Source: Rothia sp. (in: high G+C Gram-positive bacteria)
GTDB taxonomy: Bacteria > Actinomycetota > Actinomycetes > Actinomycetales > Micrococcaceae
Direction: 5' to 3'
DNA: 64,000 bases
Assembly: GCA_030529845.1 (NCBI GenBank)
Contig: JAUMWB010000003.1
Location: 124,001-188,000, forward strand
Both the position numbers and the translations under genes were made by a program. The notes beneath the pieces were generated by a model, which saw only the letters and a list, made by a program, of their open reading frames with translations, searched no databases and had not been told where the DNA came from. The first letter of the stretch is position 1. Every line of letters begins with the position of its first letter. This document shows positions 12,488-60,206 of the stretch, in pieces.

Positions 12488-12970
12488 ATGCCTACCCCAC
12501 CATTCATTACCGACCTGCGGGCTAAAATCGGCTCTGACATGCTGTGGCTCTCTGGTGCTACGGCTGTGATTCAGCGGGATAACGGCGATATTCTGCTGGT
12601 TCGTCGCAGCGACACCGGGGCCTGGACGCCGGTCACCGGCATTGTCGACCCCGGTGAGAACCCAGCCCTGACCTGCCTGCGGGAGGCTGAAGAAGAAGCC
12701 GGGGTAGTTATCGAAGTCGTGGGTTTTGCCCAGCTGAAAGCCGACCCACCCATGACCTTCGATAACGGGGATCGCTGCCAGTTCCTCGATCACACCTTTT
12801 ACTGCCGCTACATCTCGGGGCAGGCCCGGGTCAATGACGAGGAATCTAGCCAGGTGCGCTGGGTACCGGTGGACCAGCTGCCTGACTACTGTAGCGAACG
12901 CATGCTCGATAGAATCGATGCCGCCCTGCACTGGCAGAACGGCGCCCGATTCGATCTGGAAGCCAGATAA
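12488..12970 (+). CDS. NUDIX hydrolase
   Basis: 160 residues with a complete Nudix box G-x5-E-x7-REAEEEAGV starting at GIVDPGE (about residues 55-77), which binds Mg2+ and positions the diphosphate substrate. The N-terminal beta strands (ATAVIQRDNGDILLVRRS) and the TFYCRYISG segment fit the fold. Members hydrolyse nucleoside diphosphates linked to another moiety; this one resembles the ADP-ribose/DNA-mismatch type only in general layout. Its stop codon abuts the stop codon of the convergent MarR gene with no bases between. Confidence 0.88.
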   Translation: MPTPPFITDLRAKIGSDMLWLSGATAVIQRDNGDILLVRRSDTGAWTPVTGIVDPGENPALTCLREAEEEAGVVIEVVGFAQLKADPPMTFDNGDRCQFLDHTFYCRYISGQARVNDEESSQVRWVPVDQLPDYCSERMLDRIDAALHWQNGARFDLEAR

Positions 12971-13477
12971 TTAGGCCTCGGCTGAGAGCTTACGCAGGAG
13001 CTCAACCAGCAGGGTGCGTTCAACAGGGGTCAGCTTTTCTGCCCACCGGGCCTCTAGCTGGTTCTGCTGGGCGAAGATGGAGCTGACGAACTCGGTGCCA
13101 GCGGGGGTAAGCTCAACGAGGGTACCACGGCCGTCCTCGGGGTCCTTAGCCTTGGTAATCAACCCCTTGGTTTCTAGGGGCTTACTGATATTCGAAACAG
13201 CGGCCCTGGTCATACCGGTGATGTTGGCCAGGGAGCTAGCTGAGGTTGCACCGGAATGCCAGAGAGCAAACAGCACCCGGTAGGCTGCCCAAGAGCTCCC
13301 CGCAGGGCGGTGTACCTTAGACTCAAAATCGTGGGTGATAGCCACAGAAGCGCGGTTGAGTGACATAGCGAGTAGGGTGGCATCAATATTGACGGGAGCC
13401 TCAGACTGGTGGGTGAGATTATCTCCGACCCGGTCGATAAAAGACCAGTAGGTGTGGTTACGGGGTGACGGTTCCAT
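12971..13477 (-). CDS. MarR family transcriptional regulator
   Basis: 168 residues with a winged helix-turn-helix: LWHSGATSASSLANITGMTRAAVSNISKPLETKGLI followed by the wing DPEDGRGTLVELTPAG with the conserved D-x-R. An extra 30-residue N-terminal segment precedes the dimerisation helix. ATG 13477 lies six bases after a TAGGCT box (13484-13489), which suggests a leaderless transcript; the AAGGA directly abutting the ATG is too close to work as a ribosome site. It diverges from the acetyl-CoA acetyltransferase gene and could control it, but no ligand can be inferred. Confidence 0.86.
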   Translation of the reverse strand: MEPSPRNHTYWSFIDRVGDNLTHQSEAPVNIDATLLAMSLNRASVAITHDFESKVHRPAGSSWAAYRVLFALWHSGATSASSLANITGMTRAAVSNISKPLETKGLITKAKDPEDGRGTLVELTPAGTEFVSSIFAQQNQLEARWAEKLTPVERTLLVELLRKLSAEA

Positions 13478-13571
13478 TCCTTAAGCCTACTCATTGCGGG
13501 GCCAGGACGGAAAAATTAGCCCCCTATTCCAGGCCCGAGGCGTGGTGCGTGCGCCATCTATCAGTCTGGTC

Positions 13572-47514: not shown

Positions 47515-48438
47515 ATGTCACGTTTGTCAGTCGTGATTCCTTTTTACGGGGACCCTTCTGATACTTTAAATCTTGTCCAACAGATTAAAGCACAGACCGG
47601 TGAGTTACCTATAGAAATAGTGGTCTCTGATGACGCTTCCCCTATACCGTTCCCAGCGGTTGAGGAGGTTACTTCCGTCCGTCGCGATACTAATGGGGGG
47701 TTTGGCTCTAACGTTAATACCGGTGTTGCCGCAGCTACCGGAGACTGGCTGCTTATTCTCAACAGTGACCTTACCCTCCCCCCTAACTTCCTCGCTGACA
47801 TGCTTTCAGCAGCAGAAGAAGAAGAAGAAGCCCAAAGAGCTGGGCAAGGTGTTATGCTCAGCCCACACATTACAGGTCATAACGGCGAGTCGCAGTGGGT
47901 TGGTCGGGCTTTCCCCAAAACCCGCCATCACGCCTGGGAATGGTTCACCCCAGCAGCACGTCTACGCCCCACACGATTCTGGCACGCAATGGTTGGCCAT
48001 GATCTAGTCTGCACCACCGGTAAACGAGCAGAAACTGACTGGCTCATGGGAGCCTGCATGATGCTCCGCCGCGAGGACTTCAACGCGGTGGGCGGCATGG
48101 ACGAGCGGTTCTTCATGAACAGTGAAGAAACCGACCTGCAACGTCGGCTAGCTGCTCACGGCATCAAACGCATCTTCCGTGGCGATATAGTAGTAGAACA
48201 CCTAGGGGGCGGCTCATCTGGAGTCTCTACCCAGCGACGTCAATGGGTGCTCGATTCCCGCTTTATCTACAACGCAAAATGGAATGAAGGTAAGCACCTA
48301 GCCACTGCGCTGAAAGCTGTAACTGTTGCTAATTTTCTTTTTAACTTAGTAAGAGCGCTTCGTAACCGTGCCGTTAAACCTCTTGCGACCCTCCGCGAAG
48401 AACTGACCTATATCAAGAAAGCAGAAAGCAAACGATAA
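47515..48438 (+). CDS. Glycosyltransferase family 2, rhamnosyltransferase-like
   Basis: 307 residues. GT-A fold: RLSVVIPFYGDPSDTL, VVSDDASP, NTNGGFGSNVNTGVAAATGDWLLILNSDLTLPP (DxD-like NSD), DWLMGACMMLRREDFNAVGGMDERFFMNSEETDLQRRL. This pattern is that of WbbL-type GT2 enzymes that use dTDP-L-rhamnose, and the rml genes at 61.9-64 kb would supply it. The sugar is inferred. An A/G-rich run of GAA codons (EEEEE) lies mid-gene. No gap to the next gene. Confidence 0.85.
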   Translation: MSRLSVVIPFYGDPSDTLNLVQQIKAQTGELPIEIVVSDDASPIPFPAVEEVTSVRRDTNGGFGSNVNTGVAAATGDWLLILNSDLTLPPNFLADMLSAAEEEEEAQRAGQGVMLSPHITGHNGESQWVGRAFPKTRHHAWEWFTPAARLRPTRFWHAMVGHDLVCTTGKRAETDWLMGACMMLRREDFNAVGGMDERFFMNSEETDLQRRLAAHGIKRIFRGDIVVEHLGGGSSGVSTQRRQWVLDSRFIYNAKWNEGKHLATALKAVTVANFLFNLVRALRNRAVKPLATLREELTYIKKAESKR

Positions 48439-49446
48439 ATGGCAGAGAAACTCCTCATCATCAGCCCTGCCTTTCACGGCTACTGCTACTCTATTGCCGA
48501 TGGCTTTACCCAGTTGGGCTATGACGTAACGGTGCATCGCTACGATGCTTTCGACACTGTCAAAGACAAGGTCCGCAATAAAGCTCTCTATGAGCTGCCC
48601 TCAAAAGTTGGTTTCGATGGTCAGAAGGCGGCTGAAAAAGCGGCTACAGCTAAAGCTCTCCAGGTTCTTCGCGAGGTAGATCCCGATAAGCTTATCGTTA
48701 TCAAAGCAGACACACTAGGCGATGACTTCTGGCAGGCCGTCGCTGACCGCAAAATCCCCTACATTCTCTGGCTCTACGACGATCTTAAGCGTCACCGTTA
48801 CACTCGGGATTTTCTGAGAAGCCTCCCCACGGTGGTCAGCTACGCTAGGTCTGAAGCTGAGGAATTTGCCGAGGAAGGCATCAACGCTCACTTCGTAGCT
48901 AATGGCTATGACCCTAAACTGGCAGACTTCCCCAACACTCGCGTCCCTGAAATTGTGTTCGTCGGGTCCCGTTACGATAATCGCGAGAAGATGATGCTAG
49001 CCCTGAAGGACGCCGGGGTGCCAGTGCGCGTGTATGGGAGGGCTTGGTCACACCACCCCTTTGACCGCCTTCGAACCTGGGAGCTTAAACGCCCTGACCT
49101 ACCTGCTGAACGCGATATCCCGCTGGCTGAAGCCTACCGGGTACAGGCTGCTGCTGCTGCCTCCCTGAACGTTCATGGGTTGCAGGCAGGTTTAGCAATG
49201 CGCACCTTTGAAGTGCCCGGTATGAATGGGCTTCAGCTGATAGACCGCCCTGACGTTGAGGAGTTCTACGAGGTTGGCTCTGAGGTTCTCCTTTATCAGA
49301 GCACAGAAGAACTCATCGAACTGTGTCAGCGTATCATCGCTGACCCTAGCTGGAGCGACTCTATACGCGTTGCTGGCCTCAAACGTAGCCAGGCAGAACA
49401 TACTTTCTTCCACCGCGCACAGAAAATGGATACCCTATGGGTCTAA
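48439..49446 (+). CDS. CgeB-like glycosyltransferase
   Basis: 335 residues. N-terminal KLLIISPAFHGYCYSIADGFTQLG and ILWLYDDLKRHRYTRDFL, then EIVFVGSRYDNREKMMLAL and a C-terminal stretch with SLNVHGLQAGLAMRTFEVPGMNGLQLID, which is the CgeB/DUF3880-type arrangement: a glycosyltransferase-1-like half with the R-x-F-E segment. The family modifies polysaccharides and spore coats in other bacteria. The ATG begins right at the preceding stop codon. Overlaps the next gene by up to ten bases. Confidence 0.8.
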   Translation: MAEKLLIISPAFHGYCYSIADGFTQLGYDVTVHRYDAFDTVKDKVRNKALYELPSKVGFDGQKAAEKAATAKALQVLREVDPDKLIVIKADTLGDDFWQAVADRKIPYILWLYDDLKRHRYTRDFLRSLPTVVSYARSEAEEFAEEGINAHFVANGYDPKLADFPNTRVPEIVFVGSRYDNREKMMLALKDAGVPVRVYGRAWSHHPFDRLRTWELKRPDLPAERDIPLAEAYRVQAAAAASLNVHGLQAGLAMRTFEVPGMNGLQLIDRPDVEEFYEVGSEVLLYQSTEELIELCQRIIADPSWSDSIRVAGLKRSQAEHTFFHRAQKMDTLWV

Positions 49447-50510
49447 TGCACCCCGAAGATCTCGAGGCCTGGAGCACCTGGCAGGCTAACGCTCATCTGC
49501 TTCGCCGGGTAAAAAACAATCTCAAGAATATTTCCGTGCGAGCTCGCGGTGCTGAGACTGCCACTAGCGCATCTATGCCAGTAACCGGCTTTCTTCATGT
49601 GACCGGTGGCAGCCCCCAGATTGTGATTGTTCTTGATTCCACATCGCCAACCTCATTGGGATCTCTGGTAAGACCTCTCAGCTGGCTTACAGCTGGCTCA
49701 TACGCAGTGTGGGCACCCGAAGACGTGACCGAGTATCTCCCTGAAGGGTCTTGGTATGTGTCTACGCTAGCCGAAACCGACCTTGATGACGCGCTCAACG
49801 AAGTACAGCAGGTTCTTGCTCTGGGCCACTATATGGCTTGGGGGGCTGCTGCCTATCGGCTAGCCCAGCGCGTGGGTGCTCGTTTCATCACCGTCCAGCA
49901 CGGTCTGCATACCCCCTATGCGCCTCCACTGGCTCCTGGTACCCACCTTCTTGCCTTTAGCAAGGCTGATGCTGAGTTCTGGATATCTGGTCGAGACGAC
50001 GTTACCTATGATGTGGTCGGTTCCCAGCTTTTCTGGGAAGCTGCTCAGAAGCCTCAAATAGACCCCGGGACTATCTCGGAAACCCCGATTTTTCTGGGGC
50101 AAATGCACGGGGCAGAACTACCCAGAGCATCTTTCGCACGAGCAAGCATTAAATTCACGCATGAGCACAAGGCCATCTACCGGCCGCATCCAAGTGAGAA
50201 AGATAAACTTTCCCGCTTAACCCACTCTCTTATGAGTAAACTAGGAATCAATATTGACCGCTCTCAGCAGCCACTCAACCAGGTGAATAACCCGGTTGTG
50301 TCAATATTCTCGACCGGTGTTCTAGAAGCTGCACTGCGTGGAGTACCTGCCTGGGTATATCACCCCAACCCTCCAACCTGGGTTACCGAGTTTTGGGAAC
50401 GCTACGGTATGAATCGGTGGGGGAGCGATCCCACCCCGGCGCCCCAGGTACCTGTACAGGAACCTGCACAGCTCATCGCTGAATACCTCACTCGATCATT
50501 GGAGAACTAA
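49437..50510 (+). CDS. Putative GT-B transferase of uncertain family (polysialyltransferase/TagF-like motifs)
   Basis: 357 residues; I do not recognise the family with confidence. A Rossmann-like first half ends in RFITVQHGLHTPYAPPL (Q-H-G), and the second half has IYRPHPSEKDKL (R-P-H-P) and SIFSTGVLEAALRGVPAWVYHP, motifs shared by CDP-glycerol/ribitol phosphotransferases and by bacterial sialyl- and polysialyltransferases. Because neuA and neuB follow directly, a CMP-nonulosonate-using transferase is the best guess. Start is ATG 49437 or ATG 49446; the latter overlaps the previous stop (TAATG). No signal peptide. Confidence 0.6.
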   Translation: MGLMHPEDLEAWSTWQANAHLLRRVKNNLKNISVRARGAETATSASMPVTGFLHVTGGSPQIVIVLDSTSPTSLGSLVRPLSWLTAGSYAVWAPEDVTEYLPEGSWYVSTLAETDLDDALNEVQQVLALGHYMAWGAAAYRLAQRVGARFITVQHGLHTPYAPPLAPGTHLLAFSKADAEFWISGRDDVTYDVVGSQLFWEAAQKPQIDPGTISETPIFLGQMHGAELPRASFARASIKFTHEHKAIYRPHPSEKDKLSRLTHSLMSKLGINIDRSQQPLNQVNNPVVSIFSTGVLEAALRGVPAWVYHPNPPTWVTEFWERYGMNRWGSDPTPAPQVPVQEPAQLIAEYLTRSLEN

Positions 50511-50515
50511 AGAGC

Positions 50516-51235
50516 ATGCGCATTCTCTGCGTGATACCCGTTCGCGGCGGGTCCAAGGGAATTCCCCGAAAGAACCTTAAACCCATCGCTGGTAAGCCTC
50601 TGGTCGCCTGGACTATTGAACAGGCGCTGGCAGCGCAAGCTGAACTAGAAGGCGAATACCTGGTTGATGTGCTGGTCTCAACCGATGACGCTGAATTGGC
50701 TGATATCGCTCGCCAGTACGGGGCAGAGGTTCCTTTCATGCGCCCGGCTCACCTGGCAGAAGACACCACTGCCACCGAGCCGGTGATTGAGCACGCTATT
50801 GAGTTCTACACAGCTGCGGGCAAGCGTCCGGACGCTGTCATGCTCCTTCAAGCGACCTCCCCCGTCCGCCTGCCCGGTACCCTGGCACGCGCTATCCGCC
50901 AGTTCGCTACCTCCACCTCAGATTCCATGGTGGGCGTTATCCCTATCGGTCCCTTTATCTGGGCCGCCACAGAGCCACCAACTGCCCAGTACGAGGTCAT
51001 GGCCCGTCCTCGCCGTCAGGAGCTCACCCGAGAGACCTTCCGCTACCGCGAAAACGGCTCCATGTACATCACCAAGACCGAGCTCTACGAAACCCTGCAC
51101 AACCGACTGGGTGGCGAGATTGAGCTCTTCATGCTTGATGAAGTTGAAGGTGTAGATATTGACGCTCCCATCGACTTTTCCGTCGCAGAGCACCAGCTGC
51201 TCACCACCCTCGCATCAGAAGAAAACGAAGGCTAA
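50516..51235 (+). CDS. neuA: CMP-N-acylneuraminate (nonulosonate) cytidylyltransferase
   Basis: 239 residues. Nucleotide-binding P-loop-like VIPVRGGSKGIPRKNLKPIAGKPLV is the family signature; DDAELADIARQYGAEVPFMRP, LLQATSPVR and YRENGSMYITK are further conserved parts. It activates a nonulosonic acid (sialic, pseudaminic or legionaminic type) with CTP. Which sugar cannot be told from sequence. It lies six bases before the NeuB fusion gene, so the two steps are made together. Confidence 0.9.
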   Translation: MRILCVIPVRGGSKGIPRKNLKPIAGKPLVAWTIEQALAAQAELEGEYLVDVLVSTDDAELADIARQYGAEVPFMRPAHLAEDTTATEPVIEHAIEFYTAAGKRPDAVMLLQATSPVRLPGTLARAIRQFATSTSDSMVGVIPIGPFIWAATEPPTAQYEVMARPRRQELTRETFRYRENGSMYITKTELYETLHNRLGGEIELFMLDEVEGVDIDAPIDFSVAEHQLLTTLASEENEG

Positions 51236-51241
51236 AACACT

Positions 51242-53485
51242 ATGATTATCGAACGTAATATCACCCCCTACATCGTTTTCTCTGAGGACCCGGTGCTGAC
51301 TGCCCTACAGAAGATTTCTGCTAACGGGCAGCGCATTATTTTTCTGGTCAACGAATCTGGTGTGCTCAAGGGCTCCCTGTCCGACGGCGACTTCCGCCGC
51401 TGGCTGATTGCCAACCCCGCTGCCTCCCTTGAAACCAGTGCCCTTGAGGTGGCTAACCTGGGCGTCAAGACTGCCCCCATCGGTTCGGAACCGGCAGAGC
51501 TGCAGGGCGAATTCGCCAAGGGTATCAGCCTTCTTCCCCTGGTGGACGAGCGCGGCCACCTGGTTGCTATCGCCATGGACGAGCAGAACGTGCTGCGCAT
51601 TGGCCGCACCGAAATCACCGAAGACTCACCCTCCTTCATCATTGCCGAAATCGGTAACAACCACCAGGGCGACGTTGACTTGGCTAAGCGCCTGGTCGAC
51701 CTTGCTGTTGATACCGGGGCGGACGCTGTTAAGTTCCAGCTCCGTGACATGGATGCCCTCTACCGGCAGAAGGGCTCAAAGTCAGCCGGTGAAGACCTAG
51801 GTGTTCAGTACACCCTCGACCTGCTCTCCCGCTTCTCCTTTACCGTTGACCAGATGTATGAGGTCTTTGACCACGTCAAGCAGCACGATATGGACATCAT
51901 GTGCACCCCCTGGGACGGCCCCTCGGTCCAGGCTCTGGTCGACTACGGTATTCAGGGCCTCAAGGTCGCTTCAGCTGACCTAACCAACCATGACCTGCTC
52001 CGCGACATGGCTTCCCGCGGTCTGCCCATGCTGGTCTCCACCGGTATGAGCCGCGAAGAAGAGATCCGGGAGTCGGTTAATCTGCTGCGCTCCCTAGGTG
52101 CTTCCTACGCCCTGCTGCAGTGCCAGTCCACTTACCCAGCGCCCTTCAAGGACGTCAACCTGGCCTACATGGATCGTCTAGCTGACATCGGCCAGTGCCT
52201 GGTGGGCTACTCAGGCCACGAACGCGGCTACCACGTGCCCATCGCAGCGGTTGCCCGGGGTGCCAAGATTATTGAAAAGCACTTCACCGTCGATAAAACC
52301 CTTGAAGGTAACGACCATACCGTCTCCTTGCTGCCCGAGGAATTCAAGGCTATGGTTCAGCAGATCCGCGAGGTAGAGGAGTCGATCGGCACTTCTGCTC
52401 CCCGCGAGGTCTCCACCGGTGAGCTCATGAACCGCGTTAACCTTGCTAAGTCTCTGGTTGCTACCCGTACCATCGCTAAGGGCGAGGTCGTGACTGAGGC
52501 GGACGTCGAGGTCAAGTCACCCGGCCGCGGTCTGCAGCCTAACTACCTGCCCCAGCTGCTGGGCCGCACCATGCAGCGTGAGGTTGAGGCAGGATCCTTC
52601 TTCTTCGAGGGCGACCTGAAGGACGACCTCGTGACCCGCCGCGACTTCAAATTTGACCGCCCCTGGGGCCTGCCCGTCCGTTACCACGACTACAAGCCCC
52701 TCATTGAGGACGCCGAGCCTGACTTCCTGGAGTTCCACTTCTCCTACAAGGACCTTGAAGTCAACATCGATGAGGTCTTCGACCGTAAGCTCGACATGTC
52801 CTTTACCACCCACCTGCCCGACCTCTTCGCCGGTGACTTCCTGGTAGACCTGGCTTCCCGGAACCAGGAAATCTGGGAACGCTCCATTGCAGAGGTCCAG
52901 CGCACTATTGATATCACCCGTGACCTAACCCGATACTTCACCGTAGACGATGACCCGGTTATGGTTGTCACCATGGGTGGCTTCACCAAGGACGGCCACA
53001 TTGCCCCGTCCGCCCGTGCCGACAAGTACGAGCGTATCGGCGAGGCCCTGGCCAAGCTTGACACCTCGGGTGTGCGTATCGCTGCCCAGACCCTGCCTCC
53101 TTACCCCTGGCTCATGGGCGGTCAGCAGTACCACAATCTCTTCCTTGATCCCAAGGACACCGCTGACTTCTCCGACACCTACAACACCGCCCTCTGCTTG
53201 GACATCTCCCATACCATGCTGGCGGCCAACTTCCTCAAGATTCCTCTCTCCGAGGCCGTCGAGCTGCTGGCCCCCCGCTCCATCCACCTGCACCTGGTTG
53301 ACGGCATCGGCGTGGACGGCGAAGGCGTTCAGGTCGGTGAAGGCGACGTGGACTGGGCAGCTCTTGGCAAGCAGCTGCGGGAACTGACCCCCACGTCCTC
53401 CTTCATTCCCGAAATTTGGCAGGGCCACGTCAACAACGGCGAAGGCTTCTTCACCGCACTCGATAGGCTCGAAAAGTGGCTGTAA
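51242..53485 (+). CDS. neuB: Four-domain NeuB fusion: CBS pair, N-acylneuraminate synthase, SAF, TIM-barrel sugar isomerase
   Basis: 747 residues, about twice a normal NeuB. Residues about 5-120 form two CBS motifs. Residues 130-385 are the synthase barrel with IAEIGNNHQG, VKFQ, VASAD, QCQSTYPAP, GYSGHERG, IEKHFT and DHTVSL, the residues that bind PEP, metal and acyl-sugar, so this domain looks active. Residues about 400-462 are the SAF (antifreeze-like) lid. Residues 470-747 are an AP-endonuclease-2/xylose-isomerase barrel with likely metal ligands in EFHF, CLDISH, HLHLVDG and PEIWQGH. The last barrel may supply or edit the substrate sugar; this is inference. Overlaps the next gene by ten bases. 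Confidence 0.9.
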   Translation: MIIERNITPYIVFSEDPVLTALQKISANGQRIIFLVNESGVLKGSLSDGDFRRWLIANPAASLETSALEVANLGVKTAPIGSEPAELQGEFAKGISLLPLVDERGHLVAIAMDEQNVLRIGRTEITEDSPSFIIAEIGNNHQGDVDLAKRLVDLAVDTGADAVKFQLRDMDALYRQKGSKSAGEDLGVQYTLDLLSRFSFTVDQMYEVFDHVKQHDMDIMCTPWDGPSVQALVDYGIQGLKVASADLTNHDLLRDMASRGLPMLVSTGMSREEEIRESVNLLRSLGASYALLQCQSTYPAPFKDVNLAYMDRLADIGQCLVGYSGHERGYHVPIAAVARGAKIIEKHFTVDKTLEGNDHTVSLLPEEFKAMVQQIREVEESIGTSAPREVSTGELMNRVNLAKSLVATRTIAKGEVVTEADVEVKSPGRGLQPNYLPQLLGRTMQREVEAGSFFFEGDLKDDLVTRRDFKFDRPWGLPVRYHDYKPLIEDAEPDFLEFHFSYKDLEVNIDEVFDRKLDMSFTTHLPDLFAGDFLVDLASRNQEIWERSIAEVQRTIDITRDLTRYFTVDDDPVMVVTMGGFTKDGHIAPSARADKYERIGEALAKLDTSGVRIAAQTLPPYPWLMGGQQYHNLFLDPKDTADFSDTYNTALCLDISHTMLAANFLKIPLSEAVELLAPRSIHLHLVDGIGVDGEGVQVGEGDVDWAALGKQLRELTPTSSFIPEIWQGHVNNGEGFFTALDRLEKWL

Positions 53486-59041: not shown

Positions 59042-59350
59042 CTAGCTTTCTTGCCCCGCCGATTCCTTTACCTCTACAAGTCCCTGAGCTTCAAGTGAGC
59101 TGAGAAAGCCGATGACGCTTGCTGCCACAGTATCGTGGGAGACCTGGTAGATATCGGTAATCTCAGCAATCAGGTCTTCTGAGTTAATAGGGGTCTCAAG
59201 AATCTCCCATATGACGGCGCTAGGGCCGTGCAGAACCGCAATTTCTGAGGTTTTAAGGTTAGCCACATACGAAGCATCATCGGGTGATATCGTGCTATCG
59301 ACCCCCATGATAAAGGCTGTGTGGGGGGCTCGTCTGTATTCAATACTCAT
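59042..59350 (-). CDS. PqqD-like protein
   Basis: 102 residues from ATG 59350, which lies inside the end of the nucleotidyltransferase gene (11-bp overlap). The winged-helix-like PqqD pattern is readable: an N-terminal YRRAPHTAFI strand, VANLKTSEIAVLHGPSAVIWEIL (the hallmark L-N-x-x-g..iW-L), then TISAEI-like EDLIAEITDIYQVSHDTVAASVIGFLSSLEAQGLVEV. PqqD proteins normally present a precursor peptide to a radical-SAM or other modifying enzyme, but none is seen here; related PqqD-like proteins also occur in exopolysaccharide loci with HPr-kinase-like proteins. Role unknown. Confidence 0.78.
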   Translation of the reverse strand: MSIEYRRAPHTAFIMGVDSTISPDDASYVANLKTSEIAVLHGPSAVIWEILETPINSEDLIAEITDIYQVSHDTVAASVIGFLSSLEAQGLVEVKESAGQES

Positions 59351-60206
59351 GACTTTTTCTCCCAATCTTGGTGAGGAGCTGGCTGAAACGGCTGAAGAAT
59401 TTCTCCCGCACTTCAGCCTTGCTGGGGGCATGCCCTAGCTCCATAGCAAGGTGGTCTTTATTAACCAGGAGGATGCTCAAAGCGACCTTGACCTTTGCCC
59501 CCAGGCCCTGTGCATGTTGAAAGCGGGCTCGCCAGCGTAGATGGTTTGGAGTATCTTCTGAGACCGATTTCCATAAGAGATAGTCGGGGTGGCGGGAAAA
59601 TTCTTCGAGTTTTCCTAGGGCCGCTGCATAGGCCAGGTCTGCCTGTAGTTCAGGAACCCGTGCCTGCATGACTTCCCAGTCTTGGGGGGAGAGGGTTTCT
59701 TTCAGGTAGGCAATATCTGAATTGCGCTCTGCAATAGATCGGGCCCCGTGCACGACAACGGTGATACGGGAATCGGTGAGGGAGGGGAGATTGCAGGGGT
59801 AGTTGGCGATGAGCTTTGTTCTGCGCTCTTTCCAGAGAGTGTCGAAGGCTGAGCCATCTGCTGGCCCTAGGCCGGGGAAGTAGCGGTGTATATCAGCCAG
59901 TCCCCAGGCCCCGTGGTAGAGGGTCATGGCGTGTTCAAAGATTGAGCCGGTTTCAAAGTGGGCTAGGATTTCCCAGCCGTCGGCGAGAGCAAGTTCAACC
60001 AGCTGATCGACCTGGCTTGGGCGAATAAGCAGGTCTACGTCGGTGCTGGTACGGCCTGGCCGGTAGATTTCTTGGGCAAAGGCGTAGCCCTTAACGTGGA
60101 GAATGTCTAGATGGTGGGTTAGCGCCAGATGCTGGAAGTAGGCATGAGACAGCTGGATTCTAAGAGCAAGAGGAATATCTTGGGGTTGTGAAACTGAAGC
60201 GGTCAT
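59340..60206 (-). CDS. Nucleotidyltransferase-fold protein (PF14907/NTP_transf_5-like)
   Basis: 288 residues. LHVKGYAFAQEIYRPGRTSTDVDLLI contains the K-G...S-x-D-x-D core of Pol-beta-type nucleotidyltransferases (NTP_transf_5 family), and HAMTLYHGAWGLADIHRYFPGL adds the conserved D-x-H. The rest is helical. Family members occur in capsule and exopolysaccharide clusters, frequently beside PqqD-like genes, with no firm biochemical role. It is translationally coupled to the PqqD-like gene. Whether it transfers a nucleotide, phosphate or nothing is unknown. Confidence 0.78.
   Translation of the reverse strand: MTASVSQPQDIPLALRIQLSHAYFQHLALTHHLDILHVKGYAFAQEIYRPGRTSTDVDLLIRPSQVDQLVELALADGWEILAHFETGSIFEHAMTLYHGAWGLADIHRYFPGLGPADGSAFDTLWKERRTKLIANYPCNLPSLTDSRITVVVHGARSIAERNSDIAYLKETLSPQDWEVMQARVPELQADLAYAAALGKLEEFSRHPDYLLWKSVSEDTPNHLRWRARFQHAQGLGAKVKVALSILLVNKDHLAMELGHAPSKAEVREKFFSRFSQLLTKIGRKSHEY

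Follow-up and report, generated by a model that had tools for sequence, protein, structure and literature searches.

The DNA analysed here, referred to throughout as the window, is a stretch of 64,000 nucleotides from Rothia sp., and it contains a gene in which a NeuB synthase domain and its SAF lid are joined, within one open reading frame, to a CBS pair on the N-terminal side and to a xylose-isomerase-like barrel on the C-terminal side. The features of this gene and of the two genes before it are as follows.

49437..50510, forward strand: gene with no Pfam match, candidate ulosonate transferase, conserved in the genus beside the synthetase gene
50516..51235, forward strand: putative CMP-ulosonate synthetase (CTP_transf_3), nearest to PseF but below the cut-off of that model, just upstream of the fusion
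51242..53485, forward strand: fused CBS-NeuB-SAF-barrel protein of 747 aa, ATG start, single open reading frame
51242..51586, forward strand: CBS pair, residues 1-115, with SDGDFRR against the family consensus TDGDxRR
51692..52393, forward strand: NeuB synthase domain, residues 151-384 (Pfam)
52448..52615, forward strand: SAF (antifreeze-like) lid, residues 403-458 (Pfam)
52517..52519, forward strand: codon of Ser426, at the position of Arg314 in N. meningitidis NeuB (NmeNeuB)
52649..53482, forward strand: xylose-isomerase-like barrel, residues 470-747 (Pfam match 498-745)
53087..53413, forward strand: Gln616, Asp654, His657, His684 and Glu724, which we take from superfamily habit to be metal or active-site residues; present in 48 of 48 fused proteins

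The four-part fusion that a sequence-only reading had proposed here is borne out by the intact frame, by domain search with Pfam, and by conservation across the family. The NeuB domain is matched with an E-value of 1.9e-77, the SAF domain scores 40.8 bits, and the barrel reaches the gathering score of AP_endonuc_2 (75.2 bits against a cut-off of 31.1); the CBS match, over residues 9-55 of the window protein, falls just below its cut-off (23.7 bits against 24). Among the NCBIfam models the nearest is NeuB_NnaB (TIGR03569, the N-acetylneuraminate synthase equivalog), at 309 bits against a cut-off of 399.65, and the pseudaminic acid synthase model TIGR03586 is matched at 233.1, below its cut-off of 340.25.

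The fusion is present in 28 of 35 genomes of the same genus, the window's own included. It is an intact full-length open reading frame in 26 of these, is cut by the contig start in one (G016), and occupies two open reading frames in another (G001). In the latter genome (locus L015) the synthetase gene is broken into two frames just as the fusion is, and both breaks are probably assembly errors, that in the fusion a frameshift. The search covered 59 genomes in total; one of two other genomes of the family carries the fusion, and the 22 other genomes of the order yielded three with a NeuB match alone and one in which part of the barrel is weakly matched. A scan with the barrel across 84,980 species genomes returned 534 stretches, of which 427 encode a relative. 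The architecture was examined in the best 80 of these 427, a ranking which favoured sequences near the Ensifer query, so that the remaining 347 may differ. All four parts are present in 72 of the 80, and these 72 align with the window protein from the CBS end to the barrel end; six lack the CBS pair alone (L085, L087, L088, L090, L100 and L101), one is cut by a contig end (L089), and one is interrupted (L077). The best 80 come from cyanobacteria, several classes of Pseudomonadota, relatives of the sulfate reducers, Bacillota and Bacteroidota. Of 102 plasmid records with a match, one, from Ensifer canadensis, holds the whole fusion, as a full-length relative of 47% identity that also lies behind a cytidylyltransferase gene. 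None of the 63 stretches of viral contigs that fit the search patterns encodes a relative, and phage records gave three partial matches, all in the NeuB part and none reaching 80% coverage. When the gene of a relative was used as a DNA query, which more diverged copies escape, 1 of 5,426 E. coli genomes matched, over 49 bases; the gene matched is a conventional unfused neuB, and the legionaminic-type cluster to which it belongs includes a neuC. Because the fusion recurs in 28 of 35 same-genus genomes and all four parts in 72 of 80 relatives elsewhere, chance and assembly error are excluded, and the fusion is a member of a widespread, barely studied enzyme family rather than a local oddity.

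The fusion starts 6 bases after the synthetase gene, whose product scores 137.6 against the PseF model (cut-off 205.7), and it lies within a run of glycosyltransferase genes, upstream of which are two genes that we take, by their sequences, to be glmU and prs. The gene at 49437-50510 directly precedes the synthetase in all 9 retrieved loci of the genus in which the block is kept, and is a candidate for the transferase of the CMP-sugar; a comparison of its product with the DUF6716 neighbours of the cyanobacterial fusions by hhalign found no relation (probability 0.26%). A CMP-sugar synthetase-like protein is encoded in 56 of 79 loci, L077 being excluded and many of the contigs being short. The adjacent upstream gene (n=61) matches CTP_transf_3 in 30 cases and DUF6716 in 13, and the adjacent downstream gene (n=62) matches sulfotransferase in 11, CTP_transf_3 in 6, MptE-like in 6 and polysialyltransferase in 2. 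No recurrent acceptor-supply gene was seen beside the CBS-bearing fusions in the loci mapped.

The evaluation of the synthase half was based on an alignment of 48 fused proteins, consisting of the window's own and 47 of the best 80 relatives (the CBS part being present in 42 of the 48 and absent in 6), together with 24 non-fused NeuB controls. Ten of the controls were found by profile in the same loci, where tblastn showed 12 places with a non-fused NeuB, those in L077 and L096 being absent among the called open reading frames; the other 14 were chosen among the 30 matches listed of the 102 plasmid records. Residues were mapped onto N. meningitidis NeuB through PDB alignments, and the roles of the metal, PEP and catalytic residues were taken partly from the available text of PMC6795526 and partly from what is generally described for these enzymes. 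The equivalents of K53, Q55, T110, K129, S132, S154, Y186, S213, H215, E234, H236 and D247 are present in all 48 fused proteins, and E134 is replaced by Asp and N184 by Ser in all 48. By this mapping, the residues for metal, PEP and catalysis are intact in the NeuB half. The meningococcal enzyme (NeuB/SiaC; 1xuu, 4ipi, 4ipj) shares with it the condensation domain, the metal and PEP residues and the SAF lid, but is only about 350 aa long, has the lid residue Arg314, uses ManNAc, and has no CBS pair or barrel.

It is at Arg314 that the fused proteins depart from the controls. The position holds Ser in 47 of the 48 (Ser426 in the window protein) and Cys in the other, while by the printed motif the 24 controls have Arg in 23 and Lys in one (L086); the alignment column itself gives 21 Arg and 1 Lys, gaps being shifted in L100 and L076. 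Arg also occupies this position in the pseudaminate synthase 8h2c and in SpsE (1vli), and the register of the column is fixed by the PDB variants 4ipi and 4ipj, which show Ala and Lys there. The available text of PMC6795526, citing Joseph et al. 2013, reports that in NmeNeuB the R314A variant is inactive and R314K is active, and assigns to Arg314 the positioning of the ManNAc N-acetyl group. Three further positions separate the two sets: Arg168 is found in 48 of 48 fused proteins and in none of the 24 controls, Arg328 in 48 of 48 and in 2 of 24, and Gly325 in 47 of 48, with Asp in all 24 controls. Arg168 and Arg328 might substitute for Arg314, a possibility which counts against an acceptor that lacks the N-acetyl group. 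In an unrooted FastTree phylogeny the 48 fused NeuB domains are split from the 24 others with support 1.0.

The closest counterpart in the literature is the NeuB of the Serratia KL1 and KL2 capsule loci. According to the available text of PMC9000132, neuB of S. marcescens UMH9 is 2241 bp long and codes for an additional domain, COG1082; the formation of sialic acid depends on this gene, as judged for the neuB mutant by a general sialic acid assay. The same text names neuA and neuB as the two genes distinguishing these loci, gives a Kdn:Neu5Ac ratio of about 20:1 in the capsule, and reports that Kdn was chemically identified in the wild type and was absent in a mutant of the whole locus. The likeness extends to length (2241 bp against 2244 here), to the combination of PF03102 with a sugar phosphate isomerase/epimerase domain, to the cytidylyltransferase gene alongside, and to a setting in a capsule or surface polysaccharide locus; the Serratia system differs in that it serves a Gram-negative capsule of known sugars (Kdn and some Neu5Ac) and in that a CBS pair goes unmentioned in the portion of PMC9000132 available. 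The kinship thus rests on length and described domains. The Serratia length, which may include a 9 bp leader, leaves room for a CBS pair, and the marks of the Serratia type, namely a NeuB domain with an isomerase domain, a size of about 743-746 aa (747 here) and a cytidylyltransferase gene, are found at the present locus. The extra domain has therefore already been noted in print, and the window protein is a further member of a known, uncharacterised kind. Among the texts consulted in a search of the open literature, with subscription papers mostly outside it, only PMC9000132 mentions the domain, in one sentence, and the part of the later paper PMC12077157 that is available has no mention of it.

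Taken together, these observations point with moderate confidence to a nonulosonate synthase with several domains, of the Serratia KL1/KL2 type, that is self-regulated, makes a Kdn-type product and uses an acceptor without an N-acetyl group. The NeuB and SAF core would condense PEP with a D-manno-configured aldose lacking this group, most simply mannose or mannose 6-phosphate, and the product would be Kdn or a sugar close to it. The synthetase encoded by the preceding gene would then convert this product to CMP-Kdn, the activated form to be built into a surface polysaccharide; the CBS pair would most likely sense the CMP-sugar and throttle the first committed step; and the barrel would most likely act on a sugar, supplying the acceptor by metal-dependent isomerisation or epimerisation. 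For the similar Serratia protein it has been shown that sialic acid formation depends on it and that the sialic acid of the capsule is mainly Kdn (PMC9000132). Some Neu5Ac is present in the same Serratia capsules, so ManNAc may also be accepted.

The barrel motifs named in the sequence-only reading (EFHF, CLDISH, HLHLVDG and PEIWQGH) are all present, and their key residues are near-invariant: E497, H499, H524, Q616, D654, H657, H684, D687, E694, E724 and H729 occur in 48 of 48 fused proteins, and H682 in 47. AP_endonuc_2 is matched at E 1e-3 by every one of the 48 members, the window's included. Among solved chains, the barrel profile reaches E below 0.01 with just two, MJ1311 (3wqo) and the putative sugar isomerase 3lmz, which unlike the present barrel are stand-alone proteins, and which align over a C-terminal stretch alone (77 and 67 positions). 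The metal ligand set of the xylose-isomerase-like superfamily is usually Glu-Asp-His-Glu. By this habit D654, H684 and E724 presumably bind metal, and the fourth ligand would be Gln616, which is invariant where the superfamily set has Glu (its position being assigned from sequence). The weak NCBIfam matches of the barrel are to fructoselysine 3-epimerase in 2 of 48 members, in line with an isomerase or epimerase, and to CbiR in one. Since the evidence is of sequence rather than of structure, the barrel is called a probable metal-dependent sugar enzyme and no further; an endonuclease-IV-like three-metal enzyme was set aside, weakly, on evidence of the same kind.

In the best surviving alternative, which is nevertheless unlikely, mannose 6-phosphate is converted by NeuB to Kdn 9-phosphate, from which the barrel removes the phosphate, a single protein thereby doing the work that elsewhere needs a separate phosphatase. 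The Kdn-9-phosphate synthases of Bacteroides thetaiotaomicron and Prymnesium parvum, compared here by their descriptions in the available text of PMC9000132 and PMC6200933, probably have the same type of product but are used with a separate phosphatase, and no fusion is mentioned for them there; neuA and neuB are the only sialic acid genes that the PMC9000132 text names for the Serratia loci. The superfamily includes phosphodiesterases, the single CbiR match belongs here as well, and the two arginines specific to the fused proteins, Arg168 and Arg328, could bind phosphate. Against a phosphatase, the D-x-H motif of MJ1311 corresponds to Gly-Glu-Gly in the aligned family consensus, and by the usual ligand positions the three-metal site of endonuclease IV is incomplete.

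The sequence-only reading had proposed that the barrel replaces NeuC, such that a GlcNAc-derived sugar would be turned into ManNAc by the barrel and condensed to Neu5Ac by NeuB. The enzymes that could otherwise supply ManNAc were surveyed in 39 genomes, 25 of which belong to the genus (20 with the fusion and 5 without). The first part of the proposal, that NeuC is missing from the window, is confirmed: the single Epimerase_2 match of the whole genome is WecB (459 bits against a cut-off of 210; the NeuC model gives 98.5 against 235.9). Epimerase_2 is matched in 6 of the 20 fusion genomes, the window's own among them, leaving 14 without a match, and in 4 of the 5 fusion-less genomes, with a weak match in the fifth; NanE exceeds 170 bits in 6 of 20 and 4 of 5 respectively; and AGE is found in none of the 25. 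The six fusion genomes with Epimerase_2 and the six with strong NanE weigh against the Kdn-type reading. Nine of the 20 fusion genomes have no strong match to any of these three ManNAc-forming families; completeness is 95% or more in seven of these, and in one, G015, NanE is partially matched a little above its cut-off (33.9 against 27 bits). The window's own genome has only a marginal NanE match (27.7 bits), its only NeuB is the fusion, and it contains four AP_endonuc_2 matches besides that in the fusion. These counts support independence of the fusion from neuC, and the proximity to NeuB_NnaB and the small amount of Neu5Ac in Serratia (PMC9000132) also speak for the proposal. The second part, that the barrel makes ManNAc, is not supported, because Arg314 is lost in 48 of 48 fused proteins and the Serratia product is mainly Kdn in the available text of PMC9000132; the score under the NeuB_NnaB cut-off also counts against it. 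Given this loss and a mainly-Kdn Serratia enzyme, a source of ManNAc seems unneeded. Replacement of NeuC is therefore weakened to an improbable reading, and the idea of the barrel as a sugar supplier survives in another form, in which it probably supplies or trims a sugar.

The presence of a condensation enzyme and a probable sensor in one chain is supported by the CBS region. CBS is matched at E 1e-3 in 35 of 48 members (42 have that part), solved CBS pairs align with the family profile at residues of about 11-113 (best 4o9k, E 3.2e-9), and KpsF/GutQ models are matched by 38 of 48. The CBS part of the window protein, taken alone, finds two MgtE sequences (E 0.0078 and 0.017) slightly ahead of 4o9k (E 0.074), so that the resemblance to arabinose-5-phosphate isomerases holds at the family level only. 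The KpsF/KdsD isomerase (4o9k) is alike in having a CBS pair with TDGDLRR and in belonging to a pathway to a CMP-ulosonate; its CBS pair is attached to a SIS isomerase, not to NeuB. The 4o9k structure was reportedly solved with CMP-Kdo. The family resemblance suggests that a CMP-sugar, the end product, is a more likely ligand than CMP by itself or ATP; of the earlier suggestion that the domain senses CMP or ATP, the sensor is thus retained as probable and the choice of nucleotide becomes less likely.

The six loci without the CBS part are distinguished by their neighbours. An HddA-like GHMP kinase lies directly upstream in five of the six and carries a visible CBS pair in four, with TDG[DN]IRR in L085, L090, L100 and L101; the L087 kinase is cut, the L101 kinase is interrupted, and the sixth locus, L088, has no such kinase in its stretch. 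A GmhA-like isomerase occurs in three (one a fragment) and an HddC-like transferase in three. The L090 kinase, the one run against models, is nearest to HddA and below the model cut-off. No HddA-like kinase is found in any of the 72 CBS-bearing loci, within the stretches mapped. The CBS pair is thus carried by one of two enzymes, the synthase or the adjacent kinase, as expected of a pathway sensor. A second, stand-alone isomerase-like barrel is encoded near the CBS-less fusion in L085, L087, L090 and L100. In L088 a DapA/aldolase-family gene (12559-13506), nearest to the 5-dehydro-4-deoxyglucarate dehydratase model but below its cut-off, lies near the fusion and a cytidylyltransferase gene.

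A more ambitious form of the preferred reading, itself improbable as a whole, holds that the protein is a self-regulating ulosonate factory in one polypeptide, in which the barrel would convert a central ketose or its phosphate to a D-manno aldose, the Arg-less NeuB would condense this with PEP, and the CBS pair would sense the CMP-sugar; in the CBS-less branch a heptose acceptor would give a ten-carbon ulosonic acid, the sensor having moved to the heptose kinase. A barrel that is only a non-catalytic scaffold or an allosteric part is very unlikely: a second barrel in the chain could have a structural role, but with 44 invariant columns of 278, against 46 of 256 for NeuB, and with its presumed ligand positions kept in 48 of 48, it looks like a working enzyme. 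A D-manno-heptose acceptor with a ten-carbon product is less probable still, since the kinase, GmhA-like and HddC-like genes that would favour it belong to the CBS-less branch (with models run on L090 only, and below their cut-offs), while the 72 CBS-bearing loci have neither kinase nor GmhA within the mapped stretch, the Serratia product is Kdn (PMC9000132, as available), and the absence of any SIS_2/GmhA match in the window's own genome sets it aside for this organism.

If the factory reading is true, perhaps hundreds of species, from cyanobacteria to this genus, make Kdn-type sugars with two genes, and should the barrel make the acceptor, chemists would have a useful one-protein route from a cheap sugar to Kdn. 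The combination of the Arg-to-Ser change in the lid with a fused barrel is a simple sequence mark which could help to tell Kdn from Neu5Ac synthases, and by which many bacteria with proteins closest to the N-acetylneuraminate synthase model would be expected to make Kdn-type sugars; one group writes, in the available text of PMC10483923, that the two kinds of synthase cannot be told apart by annotation. The occurrence of the CBS pair on the synthase or on the neighbouring kinase makes the feedback hypothesis directly testable. Fusions of NeuB to another pathway enzyme are also described in fusobacteria (NeuB/NeuA and NeuB/NeuD, one operon being without neuC), with other partners than here and with no CBS pair or isomerase-like barrel mentioned in the available text of PMC4045943.

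Two same-genus loci also point to a loss of the block. In G003 and G023 (loci L019 and L020) the glycosyltransferase at 47515 survives only in part of its first 75-93 residues; behind it come the C-terminal 29 and 27 residues of the fusion, and then the next glycosyltransferase. This scar is consistent with one deletion that took out 96% of the fusion together with the synthetase, two other genes and most of the glycosyltransferase. Elsewhere in the window, among polysaccharide genes at 59042-60206 on the reverse strand, a PqqD-like protein adjoins an NTP_transf_5 protein, the gene for which recurs in several same-genus loci.
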